Under the pieces are notes generated by a model that worked only from the letters and a program-made list of their open reading frames with translations, had not been told where the DNA came from and ran no database searches. Both the position numbers and the translations under genes were made by a program. Of a stretch of DNA of 64,000 nucleotides, positions 15,995 through 35,666 are shown in pieces. How positions within the stretch are numbered: the stretch's first letter is position 1; each line of letters opens with the position of its first letter. The DNA comes from Affinibrenneria salicis (lineage in GTDB: Bacteria; Pseudomonadota; Gammaproteobacteria; Enterobacterales; Enterobacteriaceae): NCBI RefSeq assembly GCF_008710095.1, contig NZ_VYKJ01000001.1, positions 682,001 to 746,000 of the forward strand, written 5' to 3'.

Positions 15995-16771
15995 TTATTT
16001 GGTCGGGGAATTCCCCGACCTTTCCTCCCAGAACACTATTTTGCGTTGTAACCAGCGCACGGTCTGAGCGCCGCACAGCCCGATGAACGCCAGCAACAGT
16101 ACTCCGGCGAACATGGTGGAGAGGCTCATATTCACGGAGCTTGATGCAATCAGATACCCCAGACCGCGCTGCGCAGATAAAAATTCCGCCACCACCGCAC
16201 CGATTAATGCAAGCGCCACCCCAATCTGCAGTCCGGCAAAAATATCGCCGGCGGCGGAAGGGAGCTTGACGTGAAATAACAAATAATAGCGGGATGCCGA
16301 AAATGCACGGCAGGTATCCAGCAGTTCGGCATCGGTGCGGCGGATGCCGTTAACGGTATTGACGAACAAAGGAAAAAAACAAACCAGCGTAACCAGCACA
16401 ATTTTCGAGGCTATGCCGAAACCAAACCAGACGAGGATAATCGGGCCCAGCGCCACTTTGGGCGTGGCCTGCAGTGCAATCAGCAACGGATAGACAAACC
16501 GCTCGAAAGTCCGGGATTCCGCCAGCGCCAACCCCAAAAAGATCGCCAGCCCACTGCCGATGGCATACCCGGCCAGGGTTTCGCCCAAAGTGGCGGCGAT
16601 ATGGGGCCACAGACTATGGTCAGCAAAACCCGTTCTTAGCGCCCCAAACACCGCTGCGGGCGGCGGCAGCAGATAATCAGGTACGGAAAATACCCGAACA
16701 GACAGATCCCAGATAAGCACCAGTACGGCCAGGCTTATCAGCGGATACAATAAGGGCAACAATCTACGCAT
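15995..16771 (-). CDS. ABC importer permease, SsuC/TauC type (importer 2)
   Basis: This 258-residue inner-membrane protein has about six helices and a cytoplasmic EAA-type loop (DTCRAFSASRYYLLFHVKLPSA, about residues 148-169) that docks the ATPase. It belongs to the nitrate/sulphonate/taurine importer permease family. It is the distal gene of the leftward operon SBP-hydrolase-ATPase-permease and overlaps the ATPase gene by 8 bases. Its 3' end carries the palindrome at 16001. Substrate unknown: the family also transports pyrimidines, nitrate and aromatic acids. Confidence 0.88.
   Translation of the reverse strand: MRRLLPLLYPLISLAVLVLIWDLSVRVFSVPDYLLPPPAAVFGALRTGFADHSLWPHIAATLGETLAGYAIGSGLAIFLGLALAESRTFERFVYPLLIALQATPKVALGPIILVWFGFGIASKIVLVTLVCFFPLFVNTVNGIRRTDAELLDTCRAFSASRYYLLFHVKLPSAAGDIFAGLQIGVALALIGAVVAEFLSAQRGLGYLIASSSVNMSLSTMFAGVLLLAFIGLCGAQTVRWLQRKIVFWEERSGNSPTK
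16001..16020. terminator. Perfect palindrome between deoD and the convergent permease gene
   Basis: GGTCGGGGAATTCCCCGACC is a perfect 20-base palindrome starting 24 bases after the deoD stop, followed by TTTCC on the plus strand. It could stop the deo transcript. It also encodes part of the last residues (RSGNSPTK) of the permease gene on the minus strand. The T run is short, so strength is uncertain. Confidence 0.6.
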
Positions 16772-17522
16772 GGGTGAAATGTCTCCGTAAGTGCTGGCAC
16801 AGCGTCATAAATGACGCGTCAGCCAGCGTCTCCAGGGTCCGCGGCCGGGGAAGCGCAATGGCCAGATCTTCAATAATGCGGCCAGGGCGCGGCGACATGA
16901 CCAACACTCGATCCGCCAGAAACACCGCTTCCTGAATGCTGTGGGTAATAAACAACACCGATTTGCGTTGTTGATCCCAGATACGCTGAAGTTCGAGCAT
17001 CAGGTTTTCCCGTGACAGGGCATCCAGCGCGGCGAAGGGTTCATCCATCAGCAGCAGTTCGGGATCGTGCAACAGCATCCGCGCGATACCCACGCGCTGC
17101 TGCATTCCGCCGGACAGCTCAAAGGGATAATCCCCGGCAAAATCCGCCAGCCCGACCAGTTCGAGCAACTGTCGCGCCCGCGCCCGGGCGGCGGCGTCCG
17201 GCAGCCCCAGCGTGCGGGCGGGCAGCAACACATTTTCCAGCACCGTTTTCCAGGGAAGCAGATTCGGTTTCTGAAACACCACGCCAGTCTGCCGCCCCGG
17301 CCCGGTGACGATCTGAGAAGCCACCTGTACCTGTCCGGCAGTGGCGGCCATCAACCCGGCGGCCAGTTTGAGAATGGTGGATTTGCCGCAGCCGGATGGC
17401 CCCAGCAAAGCGACAAACTCGCCATTCGCCACCTGTAAATCAACGTCGGCCAGCGCGTGGATTGCCCCTCTGCGTGTCGAATAGGTCAGGCCGACGCCAC
17501 GCAGTTCCAGCGCGGCGCTCAT
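16764..17522 (-). CDS. ABC importer ATPase, SsuB/TauB type (importer 2)
   Basis: A 252-residue nucleotide-binding subunit with Walker A GPSGCGKST (residues 41-49), Q-loop VFQKPNLLPWKTVLENV, signature LSGGMQQRVGIARML, Walker B LLLMDEPFAALD and switch histidine ITHSIQEAVFLAD. The LLPW motif after the Q-loop is typical of the NitT/TauT family. It overlaps the hydrolase gene by 4 bases and the permease gene by 8, so all are one transcript. It would power the permease at 15995 with the binding protein at 18823. Confidence 0.92.
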   Translation of the reverse strand: MSAALELRGVGLTYSTRRGAIHALADVDLQVANGEFVALLGPSGCGKSTILKLAAGLMAATAGQVQVASQIVTGPGRQTGVVFQKPNLLPWKTVLENVLLPARTLGLPDAAARARARQLLELVGLADFAGDYPFELSGGMQQRVGIARMLLHDPELLLMDEPFAALDALSRENLMLELQRIWDQQRKSVLFITHSIQEAVFLADRVLVMSPRPGRIIEDLAIALPRPRTLETLADASFMTLCQHLRRHFTHA

Positions 17523-18826
17523 GCCGGTTCTCCACGCGTTGCCGTTGCTGTCGCCAGGAATGCCAGTACGCGCCGCCAGCTCAGTCGGTTTGCGCGGGCG
17601 TTGGCGGCCGGCGTTCCGCCCCCATCAATCACCACCCCGGCTACCGGATGCACTCGGGCAATTTCCGTGGTCGGGATATACGGAAAGGCGATCGCATGGC
17701 CGGCGTCGTCGTTACGCACATGCTCCACCGACCAGCGATGTTGATGCGCACCCAGTGCGGCAGCAATACGTTCACAGTAGTCCACCGACGGCCAGAATCC
17801 GTCATCGGCGCCAGAAATCAGCAGCACCGGGCCGCTAATCCGCTCCACCGGGATCCGCGCCGCCGTCAGGTTTTTCTGATCGCGTTCCACCGCAATAAAT
17901 GCCGGAGCCTGACGAATATGCGCACCGGGTTGTGGCGGACGATCAAAGGCGCGCCAGTCAGCCGCCGGATTGTCCTGCCAGATATTCCGCAGTGGCTGAC
18001 CGCGCAAGGTCCAGGCGGCGGCATCCCGTGGCTCATCCGGGCGGCCGGCACGCAGCGTGCCGTGTATCACCGCGCTGGGAACATAGCCAATTACCGCAGA
18101 AATCCGCTCCGGGAAGGTTGCGCCCAGCAACAAGGCCAGTTCGCCGCCGCGGGAATGCCCCGCAACGGCAATAAAGTCATTTTTCGGATGCAGGGTTTCC
18201 GTTGCCCAGCCCAGTGCCTGCTGGAAATATTCCAGTGGCGTTTCCGAAATATAATCCGGCCGGCCTGGCGCTTTAAAATACGCCAGCGCCAGCCCCTGGT
18301 AGCCATGAGCGGCAAACAGGGCCGCACGCTGCTCCGGGGTGCCGCCGCCTGAGCCGTTCAGTACAATCACCAGCGGATAAGAACCATGATCTGCTGGCGT
18401 AAACAGCGTGCCAGACAGCCCATTTTCACGAATTTCCCGCCGTGTGACGCCGGGGGCCAACAGGCGTTGAACCAGCGTGGCTCCGGCAACCGCGCCGCCG
18501 GCGTCCTGAATACGCAAGGTGATATGGCGCGCGTCAAGGCTGTCGCTTAACGCCGGATCCAGCGCCGGCGATACCAGACGTAGCGCCCATACCGGCGCCA
18601 TCGGCTCCGCTTCACGCCAGTCGCCGGCAACGGGCGTAGCGGCGTCGGGGTCCAGCACGCCCTCCGCCGTAATGAGAAACGTAGCCTGGCTGTGCCAGAC
18701 ACTGCCATCGGCGTGGGTAAAGTCTGCCGTCAGCGTGGCCTCGCCGGCAACCAGTCCGCGGGCATGAATACGGCGCGGCTGATCAATCAGACCATCAGGA
18801 ATATCAACCATCAGCGTTGCGCTCAT
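17519..18826 (-). CDS. Acyl-CoA thioester hydrolase / BAAT-like alpha/beta hydrolase
   Basis: This 435-residue protein has the two-part plan of the acyl-CoA thioesterase/bile-acid-CoA:amino-acid N-acyltransferase family: an N-terminal beta-sandwich (about 1-125) and a C-terminal alpha/beta hydrolase domain. The nucleophile elbow is GHSRGG with Ser225; BAAT N-acyltransferases have Cys there, so hydrolysis is more likely than amino-acid transfer. The other likely triad residues are Asp in SGADDGFW and His in DDAGHAIAF. No signal peptide is seen, so it should act in the cytoplasm on a CoA thioester. It sits between the binding-protein and ATPase genes of importer 2 with 4-base overlaps on both sides, which ties the transported compound to CoA metabolism. 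Confidence 0.8.
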   Translation of the reverse strand: MSATLMVDIPDGLIDQPRRIHARGLVAGEATLTADFTHADGSVWHSQATFLITAEGVLDPDAATPVAGDWREAEPMAPVWALRLVSPALDPALSDSLDARHITLRIQDAGGAVAGATLVQRLLAPGVTRREIRENGLSGTLFTPADHGSYPLVIVLNGSGGGTPEQRAALFAAHGYQGLALAYFKAPGRPDYISETPLEYFQQALGWATETLHPKNDFIAVAGHSRGGELALLLGATFPERISAVIGYVPSAVIHGTLRAGRPDEPRDAAAWTLRGQPLRNIWQDNPAADWRAFDRPPQPGAHIRQAPAFIAVERDQKNLTAARIPVERISGPVLLISGADDGFWPSVDYCERIAAALGAHQHRWSVEHVRNDDAGHAIAFPYIPTTEIARVHPVAGVVIDGGGTPAANARANRLSWRRVLAFLATATATRGEPA

Positions 18827-19887
18827 TTTGCCGCCTCCGCCCGAGCTTTCAGCGCATTTTTATCAAAGTCATCAAAAGCAGCGACAAATTCGTTAGAGAA
18901 AATACGTTCCACCGGCACCGCGGCAGAAGGGAATTCACCGGTTTTCGCCATTGCGGCAATGGCCGCCCGAATCACCGGTAAATCATATTCGCCCGGATTG
19001 CGGCGGCTGCCGTTTTCCCGGTACAGAGTGCGTTGCAGGCGGCGGGTCAGCAGCGTTTTGGCATCGTTCAGCCCTTTACCGTCCGCATTCGCGGGTTTAC
19101 TTTCCGGGTACTGACGCCAGAAGGCTTGCACGCAAAATTCGGGGTTCACTTCACAAACGTATTGCGCTTCAGTATACGCACGGCCAAAACGGCGGATCAG
19201 ATCCGGGTTGTCTTTGAACGTATCCTCATGGGCGATAAACCCGTTGCCCGGGGTTTCCTGAAATACGTCCGGGTAAGCGATGCGGCGAATTTTGGTGCCG
19301 GTGAGCTCAAAAATATCGCCCCAGCTACTGTTATAGTTCAGGGCATCGATCTGTTTACTGCGCAGCGCCTGGAAGCCCGATCCCAGCACGCCCACCGCGA
19401 CAAATTCCACGTTCTTACCCGGTTCCAGACCGGCAACACGCAGCGCGGCGCGACTGTTCGGGATGGTTCCCCATGTCAGGGCGCCGACCCCGATTTTTTT
19501 ATCTTTCAGATCTGCCAGCGTTTTGATCGGAGAATCCGCCAGTACGGTGTATTCCATGGTCTGGGCCGGCGTGCCATTGTAAAAATAGCGCAGCGGCAGG
19601 GGATCTTTACCGCTAAAGTAGCTGGAAATAACCGGTTCCGATACCGGGTAGCCAAAGGTGACTCGTTTACTGGCGACCTGAGGCAGCAGCGCCCCGGCCC
19701 CCTGAAACACCACCAGTTTGACGGACAGGTTCTGTTGTTTAAATAACCCCAGTTCCTGCGCCGCCGCATAAGGCGCGCCATCGTGCACGGCCGGGGGAAT
19801 CGCCAGCGCAACCGTCACGTCATCCAGCGCCTGAGCCTGGGAAACTCCGGCCAACATGAGGGACAATAACAACAACTTCAGACGCAT
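18823..19887 (-). CDS. Periplasmic substrate-binding protein, SsuA/NMT1-like (importer 2)
   Basis: A 354-residue secreted protein with a clear signal peptide (MRLKLLLLSLMLAGVSQAQA, cleavage likely before LDD). The body follows the NMT1/SsuA plan: AAQELGLFKQQNLSVKLVVFQGAGALLPQVASKRVTFG, then SPIKTLADLKDKKIGV and AALRVAGLEPGKNVEFV. Two cysteines in YVCEVNPEFC may form a disulphide. It is the first gene of the leftward operon, divergent from the GntR regulator at 20524. The ligand cannot be read from the sequence. Confidence 0.87.
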   Translation of the reverse strand: MRLKLLLLSLMLAGVSQAQALDDVTVALAIPPAVHDGAPYAAAQELGLFKQQNLSVKLVVFQGAGALLPQVASKRVTFGYPVSEPVISSYFSGKDPLPLRYFYNGTPAQTMEYTVLADSPIKTLADLKDKKIGVGALTWGTIPNSRAALRVAGLEPGKNVEFVAVGVLGSGFQALRSKQIDALNYNSSWGDIFELTGTKIRRIAYPDVFQETPGNGFIAHEDTFKDNPDLIRRFGRAYTEAQYVCEVNPEFCVQAFWRQYPESKPANADGKGLNDAKTLLTRRLQRTLYRENGSRRNPGEYDLPVIRAAIAAMAKTGEFPSAAVPVERIFSNEFVAAFDDFDKNALKARAEAAK

Positions 19888-20523
19888 ACATACTCCCAGG
19901 TCGATAAAGAAAATTTTCCGCTAGGGTAAAGCAGGCGTGATGAAACCAGAACGAATAACTTTATCTAATAATGTGCATATCCTGGATGAAGTGGGATGCT
20001 CAGACTTATTATGTCGTCTATGCCTTACCGTCAGCCGAAAACAGATGGCTAATATCGACCTCTAAAGCCCGGTTGTACCCTGATGCCGGTTTAACGTTGC
20101 CGTTCTCCGTCTATTTGCTGCGTCGGCGTTTCCTTATATGCCTGTATAGTAAACCCGCGTCAGACACATCCAAAGGCAGCATATTGATACCGCGCTTTCT
20201 CGCTGGTTATCTACTTGTCATACTTCCGGTTGCGGGTGCGTTGGCTACGCTCGCTCACCCGAATCACTGACTTGAGCCAGTGATTCGGGATTCTCTCTCT
20301 TGCCGTCTCCTGCAACTCGAATGATTTAGCGCATAAGTATTTCGGCTATTTAAATGCGCAAATATTCCCATTCTTTTCTGGGCAGCTCAGTACATGCGAA
20401 TAATCGCATTGCATTGCTGATTTTATTATTAGATCGCTTTCCGGCACTGTTTCAGAATGACCTTATTGGGATATTCAATGTGACGCAGTGAGCTGCTCAC
20501 AGAAATAAACTGAGAGGGCTGGC
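19888..20523. promoter_or_regulatory. Divergent control region of the two importer operons, carrying a repeat element
   Basis: The 636 bases between the two operons hold no convincing gene. They contain the repeat element at 20219-20330 and two palindromes near the GntR start: TGCGA-ATAA-TCGCA (20395-20408) and GTGAGC-T-GCTCAC (20488-20500). The second lies 23 bases before the start codon and is the better candidate operator for the adjacent FadR-type regulator. AT-rich stretches around 19955-19975 and 20430-20450 could hold the two promoters, but boxes cannot be assigned safely. Confidence 0.5.
20219..20330. repeat. MITE-like repeat element with internal stem-loop
   Basis: The element begins CATACTTCCGGTTGCGGG and ends CCTGCAACTCGAATGATT, imperfect inverted termini. 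Its middle is the perfect 12-base inverted repeat CCCGAATCACTG (20258-20269) / CAGTGATTCGGG (20278-20289) around an 8-base loop. The right end TCCTGCAACTCGAAT (20308-20322) recurs exactly at 32019-32033. From memory, elements with these termini are common between genes in Pectobacteriaceae and relatives. No coding capacity. Confidence 0.65.
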
Positions 20524-21222
20524 GTGAGCGATTCTTTATCTTTAAGCAACCAGGCTTACTACACCATTCGCCGCGATATTCTGACCTGCCGCCTGCTGCC
20601 GGGATCGCTGGTGACGGAATCTGAACTGATGGATCGCTACCAGTCCGGGAAAAGCACCATCCGGCTGGCGCTGACGCGCCTGAGTCATGACAAACTGGTG
20701 ATTTCACGCCCACGCAAGGGCTATCGCATCGCGCCGGTGACGGTGCAGGACGTGGAGGAAATCTTTACCCTGCGCGCCGCACTGGAGCCGCTGGCGGCGC
20801 GCCTGGCGGTCGGCAAAGTGGATATTGAACTGTTGAAAGATTTAGAAGCCCAGTGCCGGGTGGAAGTCGCGGCCCCGCTGTCTACGCGCATTGATGTGTT
20901 TATGAATGCCAATAAACGTTTCCATTTAACCATTGCCGAAGCCACCGGTAACGGCCATTTAATTCGCACGCTGTCCGGATTAATGGATGAAATGGCGCGA
21001 CTGGTGGCGCTGGGATTTAACGTGCAACGTATTAAACCTGAAATTAAACACGATCATAACGCCATGATTGACGCATTTATTGAAGGGGATGCGAAACGGG
21101 TGGAGTTTATTGCCCGCCGCCATATTGAAACGTTTCAGACAATGACGCTGGAAAAAATCTACGCCACCCTGAGTAAAGAAGGCACGTTATTACCGGTATT
21201 GCCACGGGAGATATTTGAATGA
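20524..21222 (+). CDS. GntR-family transcriptional regulator (FadR/FCD type)
   Basis: A 232-residue regulator: winged helix-turn-helix at about 10-75 (AYYTIRRDILTCRLLPGSLVTESELMDRY, then STIRLALTRLSHDKLV) and an all-helical FCD ligand domain with the metal-binding pattern (ALEPLAARLAV, RFHLTIAEATGN, HDHNAMIDAF, RRHIETF). The GTG start at 20524 follows GAGAGGG. It is the first gene of the rightward operon and overlaps the ATPase gene by ATGA, so it probably regulates this operon and perhaps the divergent one. FCD regulators usually bind an organic acid intermediate of the pathway. Confidence 0.9.
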   Translation: MSDSLSLSNQAYYTIRRDILTCRLLPGSLVTESELMDRYQSGKSTIRLALTRLSHDKLVISRPRKGYRIAPVTVQDVEEIFTLRAALEPLAARLAVGKVDIELLKDLEAQCRVEVAAPLSTRIDVFMNANKRFHLTIAEATGNGHLIRTLSGLMDEMARLVALGFNVQRIKPEIKHDHNAMIDAFIEGDAKRVEFIARRHIETFQTMTLEKIYATLSKEGTLLPVLPREIFE

Positions 21223-21953
21223 GCGTGGCCATTGAATTGCGTGACGTCAGTAAATCCTTTGCCAACCAAAACGTGCTGACAAATATTTCTCTGACCATTC
21301 AGCAAGGGGAAATCGTGGCGCTGCTGGGCGCATCCGGGGGCGGTAAAAGCACGTTGTTAAATCTGATTTCCGGCCTGTTACCGGCAGACAACGGCGACAT
21401 TGCCATTCAGGGAACGCCGGCAAAACACTTTCAGCACTGGCAGCGTATCGCCTACCTGTTTCAGGAAGATCGCCTGCTGCCGTGGCGTACCGTTGGGCAA
21501 AACGTACACTTTGGCCTGGAAAACAGCGCCCTCGCTAAACGGGAGCGTCGCCAGCGCGTGGACGACGCTCTGGCGCTGGTCGGCCTGTCCGACTTCGTCC
21601 GGCACTGGCCGCATCAGTTATCCGGCGGGATGCGCAGTCGCGTGGCGCTGGCTCGCAGCCTGGTGGTGCAGCCACAAATCCTGTTGATGGATGAACCCTT
21701 CTCACGCCTCGATCCGCAAACCCGCAGCGCCATGCACGACGAGTTGCTGCGTATTCAGCAGCTGACGGGGATGACCGTATTGCTGGTGACGCACGATGTG
21801 GAAGAGGCGGTGGTGCTGGCGGATCGGGTCGTGGTGCTGAAACCCCATCCGGGACGCATCCACCGGCAAACCGCGCTGAACCTGCCGCGCCCACGCATCG
21901 CCACGGCTCCTGAGGTGAATGAACAGATTCGCCTGTTACGTCTTGAGGTATGA
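21219..21953 (+). CDS. ABC importer ATPase, SsuB/TauB type (importer 1)
   Basis: A 244-residue ATPase with Walker A GASGGGKST, Q-loop LFQEDRLLPWRTVGQNV, signature LSGGMRSRVALARSL, Walker B LLMDEPFSRLD and VTHDVEEAVVLAD. The LLPW motif again marks the NitT/TauT importer family. It is clearly diverged from the ATPase of importer 2 (for example GGMRSR against GGMQQR), so the two transporters are not a recent duplication. It overlaps the regulator by 4 bases, and the permease start codon begins one base after its stop. Confidence 0.92.
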   Translation: MSVAIELRDVSKSFANQNVLTNISLTIQQGEIVALLGASGGGKSTLLNLISGLLPADNGDIAIQGTPAKHFQHWQRIAYLFQEDRLLPWRTVGQNVHFGLENSALAKRERRQRVDDALALVGLSDFVRHWPHQLSGGMRSRVALARSLVVQPQILLMDEPFSRLDPQTRSAMHDELLRIQQLTGMTVLLVTHDVEEAVVLADRVVVLKPHPGRIHRQTALNLPRPRIATAPEVNEQIRLLRLEV

Positions 21954-21954
21954 G

Positions 21955-22722
21955 ATGAAACACCTTTCACGCACCTTTAACCTGTTATTACAACGGCTGA
22001 TCCTGCTGGCCGTGTTTCTGATTGCCTGGTGGCAGGGTTCACAACATCTTCCGGCATTTGTCTTGCCCGGCCCGGCCGCCACCTGGCAGGCGCTGCTGGT
22101 GCTGTGGCAGAGTGAATCGCTGCTGCACGACATCGGCGCCACGTTCAGCCGCGTGGTATCGGGCTTCGTGCTGGCGGCGTTGGTCGGCACCCTGTTCGGT
22201 CTGGCGCTGGGCGCCAGCCAGCGGGTGGCGCTTTTTTTTGAACCGCTGCTGGCGGTGTTTAACACCGTATCGTCGGCAATCTGGGCCATCTTCGCCATTA
22301 TCTGGTTCGGCATTTCTGATGCCACCACCATCTTCGTCGTGTTTATGACGGCGATGCCGCTGATCCTCACCAATGTCTGGCAGGGCGCGCAAAACGTGGA
22401 CGCGCAGTATGTCGAACTGGCACGCAGCTTCCGTATGAACCGCTGGCAGACGCTGCGCAAAATCTATTTACCCACCATTCTGCCGTACTTCTTTTCTGGT
22501 GCTCGCCTGGCCTTTGGCTTCGGCTGGCGAGTGTCGCTGGTGGCGGAAACGCTGGGATCATCCGATGGCATTGGCTATCGCCTGCGCCAGGCGGGTGATC
22601 TGGTGCAGACCAGTCAGGTATTTGCCTGGACCTTGTTGCTCGTCTCACTGATGTTGCTGCTGGAAGGCGGTCTGCTCAAACCGCTGGAACGTCGCCTGTT
22701 TCGCTGGAAAAAACGTGCATAA
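21955..22722 (+). CDS. ABC importer permease, SsuC/TauC type (importer 1)
   Basis: A 255-residue inner-membrane protein, about six helices, with the EAA-type docking loop ELARSFRMNRWQTLRKIYLP followed by GWRVSLVAETLGSSDGIGY. The start at ATG 21955 (MKHLSRTF) is preferred over an earlier in-frame ATG at 21919, because it follows the ATPase stop directly with GAGG upstream. Together with the ATPase at 21219 and the binding protein at 22747 it forms a complete importer. Confidence 0.89.
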   Translation: MKHLSRTFNLLLQRLILLAVFLIAWWQGSQHLPAFVLPGPAATWQALLVLWQSESLLHDIGATFSRVVSGFVLAALVGTLFGLALGASQRVALFFEPLLAVFNTVSSAIWAIFAIIWFGISDATTIFVVFMTAMPLILTNVWQGAQNVDAQYVELARSFRMNRWQTLRKIYLPTILPYFFSGARLAFGFGWRVSLVAETLGSSDGIGYRLRQAGDLVQTSQVFAWTLLLVSLMLLLEGGLLKPLERRLFRWKKRA

Positions 22723-22746
22723 CGCTTATTCATTCAGGGGTAATAC

Positions 22747-23724
22747 ATGAAAAAACTGCTTGTTCTTTTCACCTTGCTGGCGGGGCTGCTGCCGCCATTC
22801 AGCTTTGCCGACGGCAAAGTGCGTATCGGTTACTGGACGTCCGGCGTCAGCCTGGGATACGGCGCGGTGCTGGAAAGTCAGGATTTCCTGAAAAAACGCG
22901 GCGTCGATGCCGAGTTCGTCCACTTCCCGGATGTGAATGCACCGCTGAAAGCGCTGGCATCCGGCTCCATTGATCTGGCCTTTGGCGCACCGGTGGCGGG
23001 TGTGTTCAGTGTAGCTGCCGAAGGGGTGCCGGTAAAAATCTTCGCCGCCACCCAGCCCGCCGATGTGGCGTTCGTCGTGCCGGAAGGTTCTCCCATTACT
23101 GAACTGTCACAACTGAAAGGTAAAAAAGTGGGCATGTCGCCGGCGGGCTCTTCCGTAGCGGTAATTGGTAGCACGCTGTTGCAGGAAAACGCCGGCATTG
23201 CCGCGAATGAATTTTCTCTGATCGGCGGGAACGAATCGCGCCTGGCGCAGTTCCTCGCGCAGAATCAGATTGATGCCGCCGCCCTGCGTACTCTGACGGT
23301 CAGACAGTTGCCGGAGCTGAAATTGCGCGTTATCAGCACCTTTGCCGATGAGTGGAAAAAACTGACGCACAGTGACGCTCTGCCTTATATCGGTGTCGGC
23401 ACCGTGCGCAATGAACTGATCACCCAACAGCCGGAAACCGTCGCTAAAGTCATCGCCGCCCTGCGCGATACCCTCGACTGGGGCCGGGCCAACCCGGATG
23501 AAGTGGTAAAGATCCTCCAGACGAAGGCCAGCCTGCCGGAAGACCAGGCGCGAGCCTACGTCAGCCTGTGGGATCGCATGAACCAGATGTCCTTTGAAAA
23601 AGCCGATATCGACACCCTAAAACGTGAACACGCAGTGCTGTTAAGCAGCGGTTCCATCAAAGGCGGGCTGAATGATGACCTGTTCGACCCGCGCCCTTAT
23701 CTTGCCGCGAAAGAACTGAAATAA
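22747..23724 (+). CDS. Periplasmic substrate-binding protein, SsuA/NMT1-like (importer 1)
   Basis: A 325-residue secreted protein with signal peptide MKKLLVLFTLLAGLLPPFSFA, cleaved before DGKVRIG. The family pattern follows: KVRIGYWTSGVSLGYGAVL, LKALASGSIDLAFGAPVAGV, SPITELSQLKGKKVGM and GGNESRLAQFLAQNQIDAAAL. It starts 24 bases after the permease. Similarity to the binding protein of importer 2 is limited, and the length differs by about 30 residues, so the two systems may take different ligands. Confidence 0.87.
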   Translation: MKKLLVLFTLLAGLLPPFSFADGKVRIGYWTSGVSLGYGAVLESQDFLKKRGVDAEFVHFPDVNAPLKALASGSIDLAFGAPVAGVFSVAAEGVPVKIFAATQPADVAFVVPEGSPITELSQLKGKKVGMSPAGSSVAVIGSTLLQENAGIAANEFSLIGGNESRLAQFLAQNQIDAAALRTLTVRQLPELKLRVISTFADEWKKLTHSDALPYIGVGTVRNELITQQPETVAKVIAALRDTLDWGRANPDEVVKILQTKASLPEDQARAYVSLWDRMNQMSFEKADIDTLKREHAVLLSSGSIKGGLNDDLFDPRPYLAAKELK

Positions 23725-23740
23725 CCCGGAGAGCAACACG

Positions 23741-24745
23741 ATGAAAGCGCTGGTATTACTACAACATGGTGACCTTGAGCAGTTACAGATTGATGAAAAC
23801 AAAGCCATGCCTCAGACGCAGGCCGGGCATGTGGTGGTGCGCGTCCGGGCATCCTCGTTTAACTATCACGATGTCTTCACCGTACAGGGAATGCCGGGCA
23901 TCAAAGTTCCTCTGCCGGTAGTGCCGGGGCTGGATCTGGCTGGTACCATCGACAGAATTGGCGAAGGCGTGACGGGCTGGAATATCGGCGACCGGGTGCT
24001 GGTTAACCCACTGAAACCGGGTGTCGGTCTGATGGGGGAAATGACCGACGGCGGCATGGCGGAATATGCGCTGGCGGACGCGCGCCAGCTTATTGCTGTG
24101 CCGGATGGCGTGACGTTTGAGCAGGCTGCCGCGCTGCCGGTGGCTTACGGCACCGCTCACCGCATGTTAATCACCCATAACACCATTAAGGCTGGCGACA
24201 AGGTGCTGATCCTCGGCGCCAGTGGGGGCGTCGGCACCGCATGCGTGGTGCTGGCGAAGCACCTCGGCGCGGAAGTGGTTGCCTGCGCAGGCAGTGACGA
24301 AAAAGCGGCGGCGCTCCAGGCGATAGGGGCCGACCACGTGGTCAATTACCGCCGGCAGGACTTCTCTCGCTGGGCGATTGACAAATACGGCAAACCCCAG
24401 CGCCGGACCTATGACGGCGGTGTGGATGTCGTGATCAACTTTACGGGCGGAGACACGTGGCGCCCGTCGCTGAAATGTCTGAAGCGTGGCGGCACTCTGC
24501 TAGTGTGCGGCGCCACCGCCGGTTATGACCCGCAGGAAGATTTGCGTTACGTCTGGAGTTTTGAGCTGAACATCAAAGGATCCAACAGTTTTTACCAGGA
24601 TAACCTGGCGGTACTGCTGGATATGGTCGCCGCAGGACAAATCACGCCGCTGATCGACCGGGTGCTGCCGCTGGAACAGGCGGCAGAAGGGTTACGGCTG
24701 ATTCGTGACCGTGAAGTGCTGGGCAAAGTGATCGTCACCCCCTGA
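23741..24745 (+). CDS. Zinc-independent MDR oxidoreductase (quinone/enoyl reductase-like)
   Basis: This 334-residue medium-chain dehydrogenase/reductase has the N-terminal GroES-like fold and the nucleotide-binding GASGGVGTACVVLAKHLGAEVVA (around residue 160). The usual catalytic zinc ligands are absent (SFNYHDVF where a Cys ligand would stand, PGLDLAG in place of GHE) and the structural zinc cysteines are missing. It should therefore be a reductase of the quinone oxidoreductase or enoyl-thioester reductase type. An unusual insertion around DFSRWAIDKYGKPQRRTYDG precedes the GVDVVINFTGG strand. It lies 16 bases after the binding-protein gene. The substrate is unknown. Confidence 0.85.
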   Translation: MKALVLLQHGDLEQLQIDENKAMPQTQAGHVVVRVRASSFNYHDVFTVQGMPGIKVPLPVVPGLDLAGTIDRIGEGVTGWNIGDRVLVNPLKPGVGLMGEMTDGGMAEYALADARQLIAVPDGVTFEQAAALPVAYGTAHRMLITHNTIKAGDKVLILGASGGVGTACVVLAKHLGAEVVACAGSDEKAAALQAIGADHVVNYRRQDFSRWAIDKYGKPQRRTYDGGVDVVINFTGGDTWRPSLKCLKRGGTLLVCGATAGYDPQEDLRYVWSFELNIKGSNSFYQDNLAVLLDMVAAGQITPLIDRVLPLEQAAEGLRLIRDREVLGKVIVTP

Positions 24746-24759
24746 TTCAGGAGCAAGAA

Positions 24760-25170
24760 ATGAACGCACAGGACATCGAACAAAAACTGCTTAAAGGCCC
24801 CTATCACCAGTGGCTGGGGCTGAAAGTCGGGCAGGCCGGCGAAGGCGAAATTACCCTGCAGGTGCCCTTTCGGGATGAATTCGTGGTTAACCCGGCAGGC
24901 GGCTATATCCACGGCGGTATTCTCGCTACGCTGATTGATCTGGCCGCAGACTGGGCGCTGGTCGCCTGGACCGGCAGGGGGGTGCCCACCCTGAACCTGC
25001 ATGTGGATTACCACCGCCCGGCGCGCGGCGATCTGACGGTTAAAGCGAAAGTGATTAAACGCGGCAAACTGGCCTCCAGCGCCGAGGCCTGGATCTATGA
25101 CGCCGAAGGGCGTCTGGTGGCCAGCGGACGTGGCCTGTACGCGACTCCGGCGGAACAGGGGGCGGCATGA
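24760..25170 (+). CDS. PaaI-family hotdog thioesterase
   Basis: A 136-residue single hotdog-fold domain with the signature NPAGGYIHGGILATLIDLAADWAL (about 45-68), where His and Asp are the expected catalytic positions, and the partner strand PTLNLHVDYHRPARGDLTVKAKV. Members hydrolyse short-chain or aromatic acyl-CoAs in the cytoplasm. It overlaps the next gene by 4 bases. Its place beside an acyl-CoA ligase suggests release of a product acid or recycling of CoA. Confidence 0.88.
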   Translation: MNAQDIEQKLLKGPYHQWLGLKVGQAGEGEITLQVPFRDEFVVNPAGGYIHGGILATLIDLAADWALVAWTGRGVPTLNLHVDYHRPARGDLTVKAKVIKRGKLASSAEAWIYDAEGRLVASGRGLYATPAEQGAA

Positions 25171-25937
25171 TCCTGAAACTGGATCATCTGGTGATCAACA
25201 GCCACTTTGAACTGGATAACAGCGCGCAACTGTTTCGGGCGCTGGGGTTCGTGTTAACGCCCAGGGGTTATCACAGCCTCGGCTCGATCAACCATTTGAT
25301 CATGTTCGCTGACCACTACCTGGAGCTGATTGGCCTGCCAGAACGGGGCGAGCCTTTACGTCGGGAACTGTTGGCTAACCCGCCGGGTATTGACGGACTG
25401 GTGTTTGCCAGCGACAACGCGGAATCTACGGCAACCACCCTGCGTACCGCGGGGTTTAGCGTACAGCCGGTGCAGCGCTTCTCTCGCGAGGTGAACAGCG
25501 GCGGAGAAAAAGGCGAAGCCCGTTTCAGTACCGTGCGCCTGGCGCCGGGCAGCTTCAGCGCCGGCCGGGTGTACTTCTGTCAGCATCATACGCCGCAATG
25601 GGTGTGGCGTGACGAGTGGCTGCAGCCTGGCTGTATTCAGGCGTTAACCGTGGTGGCGCGTGATGCGGATGAAACCGGTAAACAGTATGCGCGACTGGGC
25701 GACACGGCGTTGCTACAGGTGGTTAGCCTTGCGCAATGGCAGGCGCAATACGGCGATTTATTGCCACTTGCAGATGATCGCGAAAGTCGGTTTGCCTGTA
25801 TCCGTATTGGCGGCGGCGACACCGTCTCTGTCGTCGCCGCGGCAGAGCGGTTTCATTTACCGCTGAAACAACAAGACGGATACCTGCGCGTGGCTATCCC
25901 CGCATTGGCGCTGGTGCTGGAGTTTAACGATGCCTGA
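25167..25937 (+). CDS. Glyoxalase-like (VOC superfamily) protein
   Basis: The 256-residue protein starts LKLDHLVINSHFELDNSAQLFRALGF and continues INHLIMFADHYLELIGLPERG, the paired beta-alpha-beta strands of a vicinal-oxygen-chelate fold. His in LDHLVI and Glu in YLELIG are the likely metal ligands. Length and pattern fit the glyoxalase-like PF13468 type, whose reactions are unknown. It overlaps the thioesterase by 4 bases and the ligase by 8 bases, so it is part of the same pathway; it could be an isomerase, lyase or dioxygenase. Confidence 0.75.
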   Translation: MILKLDHLVINSHFELDNSAQLFRALGFVLTPRGYHSLGSINHLIMFADHYLELIGLPERGEPLRRELLANPPGIDGLVFASDNAESTATTLRTAGFSVQPVQRFSREVNSGGEKGEARFSTVRLAPGSFSAGRVYFCQHHTPQWVWRDEWLQPGCIQALTVVARDADETGKQYARLGDTALLQVVSLAQWQAQYGDLLPLADDRESRFACIRIGGGDTVSVVAAAERFHLPLKQQDGYLRVAIPALALVLEFNDA

Positions 25938-27453
25938 TACCCGGTCATTAACTTTACCTGACAACCTCGGCGCCTTCAGCGCCGCCCTGCGTCACAGTGA
26001 CCAGACGGCCTTTATCACCCCGCTGGCCGATGGCGCACAGAAGGAAATCACCTTTCGGCAATTAAATCACCAGGCTGACGCCATTTGCCTCGGCCTGCGG
26101 CAATTCGGCTGGTCTGGCGGGACGCGCGTGGCGATCTTAGCGCGTAACTCGATTGACTATATTGCCAGCCTGCTGGGCATTATGCGTGCCGGTCTGGTGG
26201 CGGTGCCGATCAACTTTCGTTTCCCGACGCACACGATTGAACGCATTCTGGCGGACAGCGGCAGCCGACTGCTGCTGGGCGATGAGGATCAGCTTACCCG
26301 TATCAGCGGTGACCTTCCCCGGCTAAGTTTTGGCGCGGAGCTGGACGCGCTGCAGCGGCAAGGGGAAGCGATCTGTTTTGCTCCGGGGGCCGATGACCTG
26401 GCGCTGATGCTCTACACCTCTGGTTCCACCGGGATGCCCAAAGGCGTGCGTCTGACCCATGCCAGCCACCGCTGGGTGGTGGCGACTCGCCTGTCCACCC
26501 GGGAACTGACGGGCGAACGGGTGCTCATCGCCGCGCCTTTCTACCATATGAACGCGCTGGCGCTGGCGCTGTTGACGCTGGCAAGTCAGGTGACCACCGT
26601 ATTGCTGCCGCAATTCGCCGCACGCGCTTATCTCCAGGCGGTGAACCACTACCGCTGTAGCTGGCTCACCGCCGTGCCGCCGATGCTGGCCATGATGCTG
26701 CAGGAAAAAGATCTGCTGGCGGAAAGCGATCTCTCCTGCGTGCGGGTGATTCGTATGGGATCAGCGCCGGTGAGTGACAGCCTGTATCGGTCATTACGCC
26801 GCTGGCTGCCGCAGGCGCGCATCATTAACGCCTATGGCACCACAGAAGCCGGGCCGGTGGTCTTTGCGCCGCACCCGCAAGGGCTGACCACGCCGGCCGG
26901 TTCGCCCGGCTATCCCCATCCCGCCGTCAGCGTGCGGCTGCGCGGCGCTGACGGTGCGCTGGCGGATGAAGGCGTGCTGGAGATGAAAAGTCCGGCGTTA
27001 ATGCATGGCTATCACCAGCGACCGGATGTTCCCGCGCCCTTTACTGATGACGGTTACTACATTACCGGCGACGTGTTTCGCCGCGACGAACAAGGGTTCT
27101 TCTGGTTCATCGGCCGCCATGACGATATGTTCGTCTGCGGCGGAGAAAATATCTGGCCGGGTGAGGTCGAAAAGCTGCTGGAAAGCCACCCGCAGGTTCA
27201 GCAGGCCTGTGTCGTGCCGGTCGCGGATGACATCAAAGGCCAGAAACCCGTCGCCTGGGTGATCCCCCGCGCCGGAGAGTCCCTCGACCCACAGGCGCTG
27301 AAAAACTGGGCGCTGCAACAGGGGCCGGCTTATTTACATCCACGCCATATCTGGCTTACCGACCACTTCCCGCTGGCGGGCACCAATAAAGTGGATCGCC
27401 GGGCCTTACAGATATCGGCAGAACAACGTGTACAACAAGGGGAAAGACCATGA
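25930..27453 (+). CDS. AMP-forming acyl-CoA ligase (class I adenylating enzyme)
   Basis: A 507-residue adenylate-forming enzyme that should activate a carboxylic acid to its CoA thioester through an acyl-AMP. Core motifs are intact: P-loop YTSGSTGMPKG (162-172), A5 YGTTEAGP, A7 YYITGDVF, hinge DDMFVCGGENIWPGEVE and the C-terminal catalytic Lys in GTNKVDRRAL. The overall look is of short-chain or aromatic acid ligases rather than long-chain FadD. No signal or membrane segment. It overlaps both neighbours, which places CoA activation at the centre of the island's pathway. Confidence 0.92.
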   Translation: MPDTRSLTLPDNLGAFSAALRHSDQTAFITPLADGAQKEITFRQLNHQADAICLGLRQFGWSGGTRVAILARNSIDYIASLLGIMRAGLVAVPINFRFPTHTIERILADSGSRLLLGDEDQLTRISGDLPRLSFGAELDALQRQGEAICFAPGADDLALMLYTSGSTGMPKGVRLTHASHRWVVATRLSTRELTGERVLIAAPFYHMNALALALLTLASQVTTVLLPQFAARAYLQAVNHYRCSWLTAVPPMLAMMLQEKDLLAESDLSCVRVIRMGSAPVSDSLYRSLRRWLPQARIINAYGTTEAGPVVFAPHPQGLTTPAGSPGYPHPAVSVRLRGADGALADEGVLEMKSPALMHGYHQRPDVPAPFTDDGYYITGDVFRRDEQGFFWFIGRHDDMFVCGGENIWPGEVEKLLESHPQVQQACVVPVADDIKGQKPVAWVIPRAGESLDPQALKNWALQQGPAYLHPRHIWLTDHFPLAGTNKVDRRALQISAEQRVQQGERP

Positions 27454-29072
27454 GCTTTAACTGGCATAACCCGTATCTTACGCCGCGCACGCCGGTGTTC
27501 GCCCATAACATCGTCTCCACTTCGCATCCGCTGGCGGCTCAGGCGGGCAACCGCATCTTACTGGAAGGCGGCAACGCGGTGGATGCCGCTATCGCCGCCG
27601 CCGCCACGCTGACGGTGGTGGAGCCGGTATCAAACGGACTGGGAAGCGATGCCTTTGCGCTGGTCTGGGCCGGTGGACAACTGCACGGGCTGAATGCGTC
27701 CGGCCCTGCGCCGGGCGCCTGGGATGTGAATTATTTTCGTCGTCGCTACGGCAACGATGCGCAGGGACTGGCGAAACGCCCGGAACGCGGCTGGGATGCC
27801 GTTACCGTGCCTGGCGCGGTGGCCGGTTGGGAAGCGCTGCATCGCCGTTTTGGTAAACTGCCCTTTTCCCGTCTGATGCACAGCGCCATCGGGATCGCAG
27901 AGCGCGGCGTCGCACTGGCGCCGATGGTGGCGCGGAAATGGCAGGCCGCCGTACCGATTCTTGCGCAACAACCCGGCTTTGCCGATGCCTTTATGCCTGG
28001 CGGACGGGCGCCGCAAACCGGCGAGTTATTTCGTTTCCCGGCCGCCGCGAAAACCCTGCGTCTGTTGGCCGACCAGGGCGCGCGCGCGTTTTATGAAGGC
28101 GAGATTGCCGAATCCATCGTGAACTGGTCGCAGCAGACCGGCGGCAGCCTGACCTTACAGGATTTACAGGCATATCAGCCTGAATGGGTAACGCCGATAA
28201 GCCAGCGCTATCGCGGTTATGAGGTCCATGAAATTCCCCCTAACGGGCAGGGCATTGCGGCGCTGATTGCCCTGGGGATTCTGGAGCGGTTTGACCTCGC
28301 CGGCCTGGCGCTGGATGGCGTGGATGTCCAGCATCTGCAAATCGAAGCGATGAAACTGGCCTTCGCCGATGTGTACCGCTACGTGGCTGATCCGGCGTCG
28401 ATGGAAATCACGCCGCAGCAGATGCTGGACAATAACTACCTGCAGCAGCGCGCCGCGCAAATCGACCTGACGCGCGCCAGCCTGCCGGCGGCGGGAATAC
28501 CTCGCAGCGGCGGCACCGTTTATCTGACCACCGCCGATGAAAATGGCATGATGGTGTCATTTATTCAGTCCAACTATATGGGCTTTGGTTCGGGCGTGGT
28601 GGTGCCGGAGTATGGCATCAGCCTGCAAAACCGGGGAGCGGGATTTTCCAGTGATCCAAAATCCGCCAATGTGGTAGCGCCGGGCAAACGTCCCTTCCAC
28701 ACCATTATTCCGGCTTTCCTTACCAGAAATGGACAGCCGCAGATGAGCTTTGGCGTCATGGGGGGCGATATGCAACCCCAGGGGCATGTGCAAACCCTCG
28801 TCAGAATGCTGGATTTTCATCAGCAGCCGCAGGCTGCCTGCGACGCCCCTCGCTGGAAAGTTAACCGGGATTTTACCCTTGATCTGGAAAGCCGTTTTGA
28901 CCCGGCGGTCGTGCAGCAACTGCAATCCCGCGGCCATCAACTAAAAAGCGTTGACGACCCTTACATGGACTTTGGTGCAGGGCAATTTATCTGGCGACTG
29001 TCAGACGACCTCAATCACGGCTATGTCGCCGCCAGTGACAGCCGACGGGACGGGCAGGCCGTGGGGTTTTGA
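27450..29072 (+). CDS. Leaderless gamma-glutamyltransferase family protein (YwrD-like)
   Basis: A 540-residue Ntn-hydrolase of the GGT family. The N-terminal half shows STSHPLAAQAGNRILLEGGNAVDAAIAAA, the family signature. The autoprocessing site aligns at Thr356 in SGGTVYLTTADENG, with VY where E. coli GGT has TH, as in cephalosporin-acylase/YwrD-type members. The small subunit then shows IQSNYMGFGSGVV and GVMGGDMQPQGHVQ. There is no signal peptide (MSFNWHNPYLTPRTPVF), so it should act in the cytoplasm, unlike classical periplasmic GGT. It overlaps the ligase by 4 bases and is the last gene of the operon. It may cleave a gamma-glutamyl or other amide bond of the imported compound. Confidence 0.88.
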   Translation: MSFNWHNPYLTPRTPVFAHNIVSTSHPLAAQAGNRILLEGGNAVDAAIAAAATLTVVEPVSNGLGSDAFALVWAGGQLHGLNASGPAPGAWDVNYFRRRYGNDAQGLAKRPERGWDAVTVPGAVAGWEALHRRFGKLPFSRLMHSAIGIAERGVALAPMVARKWQAAVPILAQQPGFADAFMPGGRAPQTGELFRFPAAAKTLRLLADQGARAFYEGEIAESIVNWSQQTGGSLTLQDLQAYQPEWVTPISQRYRGYEVHEIPPNGQGIAALIALGILERFDLAGLALDGVDVQHLQIEAMKLAFADVYRYVADPASMEITPQQMLDNNYLQQRAAQIDLTRASLPAAGIPRSGGTVYLTTADENGMMVSFIQSNYMGFGSGVVVPEYGISLQNRGAGFSSDPKSANVVAPGKRPFHTIIPAFLTRNGQPQMSFGVMGGDMQPQGHVQTLVRMLDFHQQPQAACDAPRWKVNRDFTLDLESRFDPAVVQQLQSRGHQLKSVDDPYMDFGAGQFIWRLSDDLNHGYVAASDSRRDGQAVGF

Positions 29073-35343: not shown

Positions 35344-35430
35344 GCGAAGGTGGCGGAATTGGTAGACGCGCTAGCTTCAGGTGTTAGTGCCTTAACGGGC
35401 GTGAGGGTTCAAGTCCCTCTCTTCGCACCA
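35344..35430 (+). tRNA. tRNA-Leu (anticodon CAG), copy 1
   Basis: An 87-base gene beginning GCGAAGGTGG and ending CTTCGCACCA with CCA encoded. The acceptor stem GCGAAGG pairs with CCTTCGC-like CTCTTCGC, the T loop is GGTTCAAGTCC, and the long variable arm reads TGCCTTAACGGGC, as in class II leucine tRNAs. The anticodon CAG is at 35378-35380 and reads CUG codons. It matches the leuQPV cluster type near rsmC and fhuF in E. coli. Confidence 0.98.
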
Positions 35431-35462
35431 ACAACCACATTATTTGTATCGCACGGCATACT

Positions 35463-35549
35463 GCGAAGGTGGCGGAATTGGTAGACGCGCTAGCTTCAGG
35501 TGTTAGTGTCTTAACGGACGTGAGGGTTCAAGTCCCTCTCTTCGCACCA
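35463..35549 (+). tRNA. tRNA-Leu (anticodon CAG), copy 2, with a variant variable arm
   Basis: Same 87-base structure with CCA encoded; anticodon CAG at 35497-35499. It differs from copies 1 and 3 only in the variable arm, where GCC/GGC becomes GTC/GAC, a compensatory change that keeps the stem paired. Confidence 0.98.
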
Positions 35550-35579
35550 CGCTGGTGATACAAATTATTCATACCCTGT

Positions 35580-35666
35580 GCGAAGGTGGCGGAATTGGTA
35601 GACGCGCTAGCTTCAGGTGTTAGTGCCTTAACGGGCGTGAGGGTTCAAGTCCCTCTCTTCGCACCA
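35580..35666 (+). tRNA. tRNA-Leu (anticodon CAG), copy 3
   Basis: Identical in sequence to copy 1, 87 bases with CCA encoded; anticodon CAG at 35614-35616. The three genes are spaced by 32 and 30 bases and are probably one transcript. No clear terminator hairpin follows, only a T-rich stretch at 35671-35675. Confidence 0.98.

Follow-up and report, generated by a model that had tools for sequence, protein, structure and literature searches.

The 13 genes at positions 15995–29072 of a 64,000-nucleotide stretch of the Affinibrenneria salicis genome (contig NZ_VYKJ01000001.1; the whole stretch is referred to below as the window) probably constitute a single substrate-induced catabolic regulon with coenzyme A (CoA)-linked chemistry, a reading given a probability of about 0.7. 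At the level of sequence, this reading is supported directly by the gene content of the island, by its conservation and modularity, and by the sharing of one operator between its parts.

All 13 open reading frames were confirmed by Pfam and NCBIfam profile searches (Table 1), and the families assigned in a preliminary description of the island hold: two ATP-binding cassette (ABC) importers, a GntR/FCD regulator, a medium-chain reductase (MDR), a hotdog thioesterase, a Glyoxalase_3 (VOC) protein, an AMP-binding ligase, a BAAT-type protein, and a GGT homologue. Each importer consists of an NMT1/THI5-like periplasmic binding protein (PF09084), a permease (PF00528), and an ATPase (PF00005), as expected for the NitT/TauT type, and the regulator includes both the GntR helix-turn-helix and the FCD domain. 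Signal-peptide-like N-termini were recognised by eye on both binding proteins, and no such start was seen, likewise by eye, on the GGT homologue, in agreement with its earlier designation as leaderless. The four-base overlaps first claimed for most junctions are found at only 5 of the 11 within-operon junctions. Overlaps of 8 bases occur at atpA/permA and at VOC/ligase, the permB/atpB genes overlap or abut depending on the start of permB, and three junctions are gaps of 24, 16 and 14 bases.

To assess conservation, genomes were scanned with an alignment of the VOC protein as the seed, and 80 of 218 relatives were kept as loci. Presence was scored by per-gene identity thresholds that were set after a first look at the loci, several of which are truncated by contig ends. 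All 13 genes occur together in 15 of the 80 loci, but the unit is not the 13-kb block. It is an eight-gene core, gntR-ATPase-permease-binding protein-MDR-PaaI-VOC-ligase, that is complete in 51 loci; three loci have seven of these genes, two have four, and 24 have the VOC gene alone. The second module comprises the binding protein, BAAT, ATPase, and permease genes, and an optional GGT-fold acylase forms the third part. The core is without the four-gene module in 25 loci, whereas the complete module is present in 21 and GGT, at threshold, in 21, with some contig-end cuts affecting all three counts. The 13-gene loci are from six Enterobacterales, with the divergent layout, and nine Pseudomonas, where the genes form one collinear run; outside these groups, the modules are unlinked or were not found. 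Relative to the window, the ratio of nonsynonymous to synonymous differences (pN/pS) of the island genes is 0.067–0.269 in loci L002 and L008 and 0.13–0.52 in the more distant L005 and L014, where synonymous sites are near-saturated.

Because VOC had been the seed of the first search, a second was seeded with MDR, and 28 of 200 Burkholderiaceae genomes matched at E <= 1e-110. Fourteen of the 15 high-identity and two of the 13 low-identity genomes were fetched, and six of the 14 high-identity genomes also belong to the VOC set. The 14 high-identity regions include PaaI and the ligase in every case, VOC in 11, and a linked four-gene module in 5. A ligase seed matched 13 of 385 alphaproteobacterial genomes (centre genome included); the 12 regions read hold an MDR relative in 9 (one at 32% identity), PaaI in 8, VOC in 7, and all four enzymes in 6. 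In a further ligase-seeded search, only G001 itself matched among 369 genomes of its class at E <= 1e-115, hence the distribution of the system is scattered. In L142, L144 and L146, which have the core and the four-gene module and no VOC match, the PaaI gene directly joins the ligase gene.

A palindrome, TGTGAGCnGCTCACA, emerged when short dyads were counted in the sequences preceding gntR, taken from the window together with 21 loci. The main operator of the window is the sole match with at most one mismatch in 64 kb, where 0.01 is expected. At the gntR start of the 51 core loci, the palindrome is exact in 14, within one mismatch in 36, and within two mismatches in 45, including 25 of the 30 loci not used for its derivation; 298 permuted palindromes reached 0.017 loci on average and 2 at most. 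In five clusters without an adjacent gntR, the best site in the whole locus is no better than four mismatches. Two Methylobacterium plasmids, the two read out of four, hold an intact core with the operator at one and two mismatches; one of them is pMRAD01 of Methylobacterium radiotolerans JCM 2831. The divergent loci L002 and L008 have a three-mismatch site 96–102 bp before sbpA, at about the same place as the weak site at 19990 in the window.

Whole-genome scans at one mismatch covered 48 genomes (9 + 39) and returned matches in 39 of them. The 55 sites include 39 at cluster loci, four before unlinked four-gene modules, and 12 elsewhere, compared with 10 for a reversed control, and all 17 exact sites adjoin either the core or an unlinked four-gene module. 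Cluster sites lie at the gntR start or, in Paraburkholderia-type loci, before a porin-family gene or a second gntR. A third member of the regulon was sought at the 12 off-cluster one-mismatch sites, the number of which is at control level; neighbours shared by these sites were found mainly within two pairs of loci, L277/L278 and L279/L280, each seemingly of close relatives. A CRP site (consensus TGTGA-N6-TCACA) was set aside as the identity of the palindrome because the gap is 5 and because a global regulator would be expected to have more than one or a few sites per genome. Matches to TNGTNNNACNA, an FCD-type operator, were found in just 3 of 48 upstream regions and are not consistent. The half-site TGTGAGC/GCTCACA is identical to that of the lac operator.

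A BAAT relative occurs elsewhere in 7 of the 18 genomes that lack an adjacent four-gene module. Of the nine BAAT matches, six regions (L200 and L240–L244) were read; the other three matches are a fragment of 282 residues in G962 and an additional copy each in G766 and G804. The four module genes are together in all six, though arranged in L241 as two divergent pairs. In five (L200, L241, L242, L243 and L244), a site with at most two mismatches lies next to the module. In Acerihabitans arboris (L009), where the core and GGT occur without the four-gene module beside them, a second exact site precedes an unlinked atpA-permA-sbpA-BAAT operon, 21 bp from its called start. Since the operator also stands before the unlinked module in five of the six regions, both importers appear to belong to a single regulon. 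The possibility raised at the outset, that the two operons respond to unrelated substrates and are merely neighbours, is weakened by this common operator and by the nine Pseudomonas loci in which all 13 genes are collinear. It is unlikely, though the 25 loci with the core alone (some cut by contig ends) and the ability of the module to stand unlinked are what it would predict.

Several points count against a single regulon. The loci share descent, hence the counts given above are not independent. The window operator carries one mismatch and the site proximal to sbpA four, and the site at gntR has more than two mismatches in 6 of the 51 core loci (L006, L031, L060, L063, L073 and L076); L006 among these holds all 13 genes. 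The unlinked module in L240 has no operator site. VOC is absent from 3 of the 14 MDR-seeded clusters and is therefore not obligatory, the alphaproteobacterial PaaI and VOC relatives (L100–L111) are only 32–39% identical, and the 25 ligase family matches listed, out of 106, are all below their cutoffs. Finally, GntR is the putative reader of TGTGAGCnGCTCACA on grounds of adjacency and co-occurrence.

In the mechanism proposed for a single regulon, the GntR/FCD protein would sit on TGTGAGCnGCTCACA beside its own start and repress both modules, and the imported compound or its CoA ester would release it. The two NitT-type importers would take up the compound itself or a pair of related forms, and a CoA thioester would be formed in the cytoplasm by the ligase. 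The MDR protein would reduce a conjugated double bond or a quinone-like carbonyl, and the VOC metalloprotein may catalyse a hydrolysis, an oxygenation or a rearrangement. Release of the acid would fall to the two thioesterases, PaaI-like and BAAT-type, and the optional GGT-fold acylase would liberate acid from an amide. The importer-plus-CoA system outlined in the preliminary description is coherent and conserved, while its de-amidation, CoA activation and reduction steps stay predictions from gene families.

The best PDB match of the ligase is feruloyl-CoA synthetase (8weu/8wev, 228 bits), yet the two are distant. The MDR protein scores 202 bits with TIGR02824, below the cutoff of 296.8, and a zinc motif was not seen in it by eye. 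The hotdog thioesterase has the HGG...D motif (His51/Asp60) and falls short of the cutoff for PaaI hydroxyphenylacetyl-CoA thioesterase (TIGR02286, 24.0 vs 118.9). In the BAAT protein, Ser225-Asp341-His377 is the proposed catalytic triad, with Ser225 as the nucleophile. Bile acid-CoA:amino acid N-acyltransferase uses a Cys nucleophile, which was not found here; a pattern permitting Ser or Cys matches 118 of the 120 listed proteins, all with Ser.

The VOC residues His7, Glu53, Asp76 and His140 are invariant in 24 aligned sequences and are proposed to form a metal site. No solved relative was found by sequence search at E 0.001. The nearest solved folds are Staphylococcus aureus 3p8a and 4-hydroxyphenylpyruvate dioxygenase (HPPD), with 16% and ~11% identity, respectively; the residues proposed to bind metal fall within the first half of the protein, unlike those of HPPD. 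In other proteobacteria (L030, L034, L044, L047 and L079), the VOC relative lies in a different common neighbourhood, which in L044 includes an alanine racemase and an endonuclease/phosphatase-family protein.

The GGT homologue retains the family fold, the catalytic nucleophile Thr356 and the glycine pair. The γ-glutamyl-binding residues of Escherichia coli GGT are R114, N411, Q430, D433, S462 and S463, and the window protein aligns S84, Y376, R395, G398, H417 and T418 to these positions; as judged from the alignment, it lacks the residues that bind the γ-glutamyl group. Its best PDB match is 2nlz (495 bits), a GGT-related protein that likewise has no Arg at the place of R114 and whose function, 'cephalosporin acylase', is the depositor's name only; the GGT fold is also shared with 5hft, the oxamate amidohydrolase HpxW. 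Salvage of glutathione or γ-glutamyl compounds is very improbable as the role of the island: the family score (362.0 vs 357.85) is just above the cutoff, but the residues that hold the γ-glutamyl group are replaced, and GGT was not found at threshold in 59 of the 80 loci (a contig end truncates some of them, L004 and L007 for example). The γ-glutamyl amides suggested earlier as growth substrates are accordingly unlikely.

Orthologues of the acylase with 68–71% identity are found away from the cluster, in other contexts, in 8 of the 18 genomes searched; no operator lies beside them, and one two-mismatch match was found ~5 kb downstream in L232. In L232, L236, L237, L238, L239 and L246, acylase relatives (52% identical in L246, ~70% in the others) adjoin an apparent ABC importer, judged by size from a ~500-residue protein of binding-protein dimensions and two permease-sized proteins. 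Adjacent GGT and BAAT relatives are present on a Ketogulonicigenium plasmid (L086:10380-13245), and the stretch that was read there contains none of the system's remaining genes.

The substrate is most likely an aromatic or α,β-unsaturated carboxylate, perhaps derived from plants, with which, or with insects, many of the hosts are associated according to their organism names. Neighbouring genes, which were picked by eye and serve as leads and not as tests, point towards an aromatic or unsaturated acid, for which an amide-bound form is plausible. In Paraburkholderia, the variants further include a porin, UbiD, UbiX, another GntR and binding protein, and an AndAc-like ring dioxygenase (413 bits vs a cutoff of 750; families checked in L060 and L061). 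Operator-like sites precede the porin-family gene in these variants and, in some of them, also the additional gntR. Bradyrhizobium L057 has UbiD together with a probable UbiX flavoprotein and a member of the nitrilase family. The Methylobacterium plasmid cores adjoin molybdenum-hydroxylase and 5-oxoprolinase genes, possibly unrelated, and an HpcH aldolase, a luciferase-like monooxygenase, TauD, hydantoinase B or a family 1 glycosidase are found near the alphaproteobacterial clusters. Furan-carboxylate (Hmf) and other pathways pair UbiD/UbiX with an aryl-CoA ligase, and the Paraburkholderia and Bradyrhizobium variants similarly have UbiD/UbiX beside the CoA ligase. Unlike in Hmf-type pathways, the core includes no CoA-ester dehydrogenase, and none of the 13 genes in the window is UbiD.

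Import of an N-acyl conjugate or small amide, from which the GGT-fold acylase frees the acid so that only the acid part proceeds on CoA, is a possible alternative, put forward tentatively. The amidohydrolases found with the system differ by lineage: GGT in 21 of the 80 loci, the nitrilase family in L057, a Zn-dependent hydrolase on a Sodalis plasmid, DUF2817 in L156, and hydantoinase B in L103; binding proteins of the peptide type occur in L100, L103 and L156. These neighbours were, however, chosen by eye without a systematic search of the other loci for amidohydrolases, and the 68–71% GGT orthologues of Burkholderiaceae stand in other contexts with no operator beside them. Assimilation of sulphonates or taurine, also considered initially, has very little probability. 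The importers are of the NitT/TauT/SsuA type, as in Ssu/Tau operons, but both binding proteins are below the SsuA cutoff (TIGR01728, 58.7 and 114.3 vs 163.5), SbpB scores 23.0 vs 304.25 for TauA (TIGR01729), and no known desulphonating enzyme was found among the 13 proteins with Pfam or NCBIfam. A CoA ligase and thioesterases would have no role in such a pathway, and among the neighbours a luciferase-like monooxygenase was seen at L108 and L110, and TauD at L110 alone.

Table 1. Features of the island and its intergenic region in the window.
Feature	Positions	Strand	Evidence or remark
permA, ABC permease of importer A	15995..16771	-	PF00528 8.8e-25
atpA, ABC ATPase of importer A	16764..17522	-	PF00005 6.5e-34
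BAAT-type acyl-CoA thioesterase	17519..18826	-	PF08840/PF04775; PDB neighbours ACOT4, ACOT2
sbpA, periplasmic binding protein of importer A	18823..19887	-	PF09084 9e-21
Weak operator-like site, 103 bp before the start of sbpA	19990..20004	.	4 mismatches, not significant alone
12-pair hairpin, sbpA-gntR intergenic	20258..20289	+	probably within inserted repeat element
Weak second operator-like site, 110 bp upstream of main site	20377..20391	.	4 mismatches, not significant alone
Main operator AGTGAGCTGCTCACA, 1 mismatch to TGTGAGCnGCTCACA	20487..20501	.	upstream of gntR
gntR, GntR/FCD regulator, proposed operator reader	20524..21222	+	PF07729, PF00392
atpB, ABC ATPase of importer B	21219..21953	+	PF00005 4.4e-36
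permB, ABC permease of importer B	21919..22722	+	PF00528 2.9e-23; start possibly further in
sbpB, periplasmic binding protein of importer B	22747..23724	+	PF09084 5.7e-19
MDR, medium-chain reductase	23741..24745	+	PF00107/PF13602
PaaI-like hotdog thioesterase	24760..25170	+	TIGR00369 78.6 vs cutoff 36.6
VOC protein, Glyoxalase_3	25167..25937	+	PF13468 2.5e-24; model pLDDT (predicted local distance difference test) 94.7
ACL, acyl/aryl-CoA ligase (AMP-forming)	25930..27453	+	PF00501/PF13193
GGT-fold N-terminal nucleophile (Ntn) acylase, no leader, nucleophile Thr356	27450..29072	+	PF01019 1.4e-158

The island is flanked by deoB-deoD on one side and, on the other, by a sugar-porter MFS gene and two genes tentatively identified as rimI and holD. 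The deoD flank reported initially is correct (398.7 vs the NCBIfam cutoff of 232.25), while 'galP' holds only as a sugar-porter MFS gene (TIGR00879, 486.9 vs 237.8). The deoD-rimI interval varies in length among relatives, and in L192 it is ~0.94 kb without the island, the 13-gene set of the same genome being elsewhere (L002). In the 12 deoD regions read, rimI and holD were seen in five, 0.9 to 9 kb from deoD, and a homologue of the window MFS gene in none. No homologue of deoB, deoD, the MFS gene, rimI or holD lies within the short flanks of the island in L001–L017. The location of the set thus varies between genomes, since the interval is island-free in L192 and the flank homologues were not found elsewhere.

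Synonymous difference from Raoultella BIGb0138 (L001) is 0.39–0.56 for the nine island genes present and 0.59–0.63 for deoB/deoD, a contrast that lends mild support to transfer. Against this, no such contrast is seen with L002 and L008 (0.49–0.74 for the island vs 0.63–0.67 for deoB/deoD). Over the whole of deoB-deoD, the closest genomes that were found share 78% identity; megablast gave no matches in E. coli genomes, and only two 1% partial matches in plasmids. In the window, 636 bp separate sbpA from gntR, compared with 157–342 bp in seven divergent relatives, and the extra stretch (20220–20340), which holds the 12-pair hairpin, resembles a dispersed repeat of Enterobacterales. Counts of consensus promoters and terminators are no higher than chance. 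Outside the island, three tRNA-Leu(CAG) genes lie in tandem at 35344–35666.

No described pathway with the same gene set was found in the open-access literature, in agreement with the preliminary description, and no description of the operator was found there either; subscription literature lies mostly outside this scope. It is conceivable, though we would put it forward only tentatively, that the system is an undescribed CoA-dependent pathway of Alpha-, Beta- and Gammaproteobacteria, with a ligase, an MDR, a hotdog thioesterase and in most cases a VOC metalloenzyme. Its substrate would be an aromatic or unsaturated acid of plant origin, in many instances bound as an amide, and one dedicated 15-bp operator would unite its parts even where these are scattered. 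The recurrence of the system across these three groups suggests that the compound handled is likely to be a common one, which the literature searched does not link to this system. The operator delimits the regulon, ties in unlinked transporter genes, and offers a reporter for the inducer.

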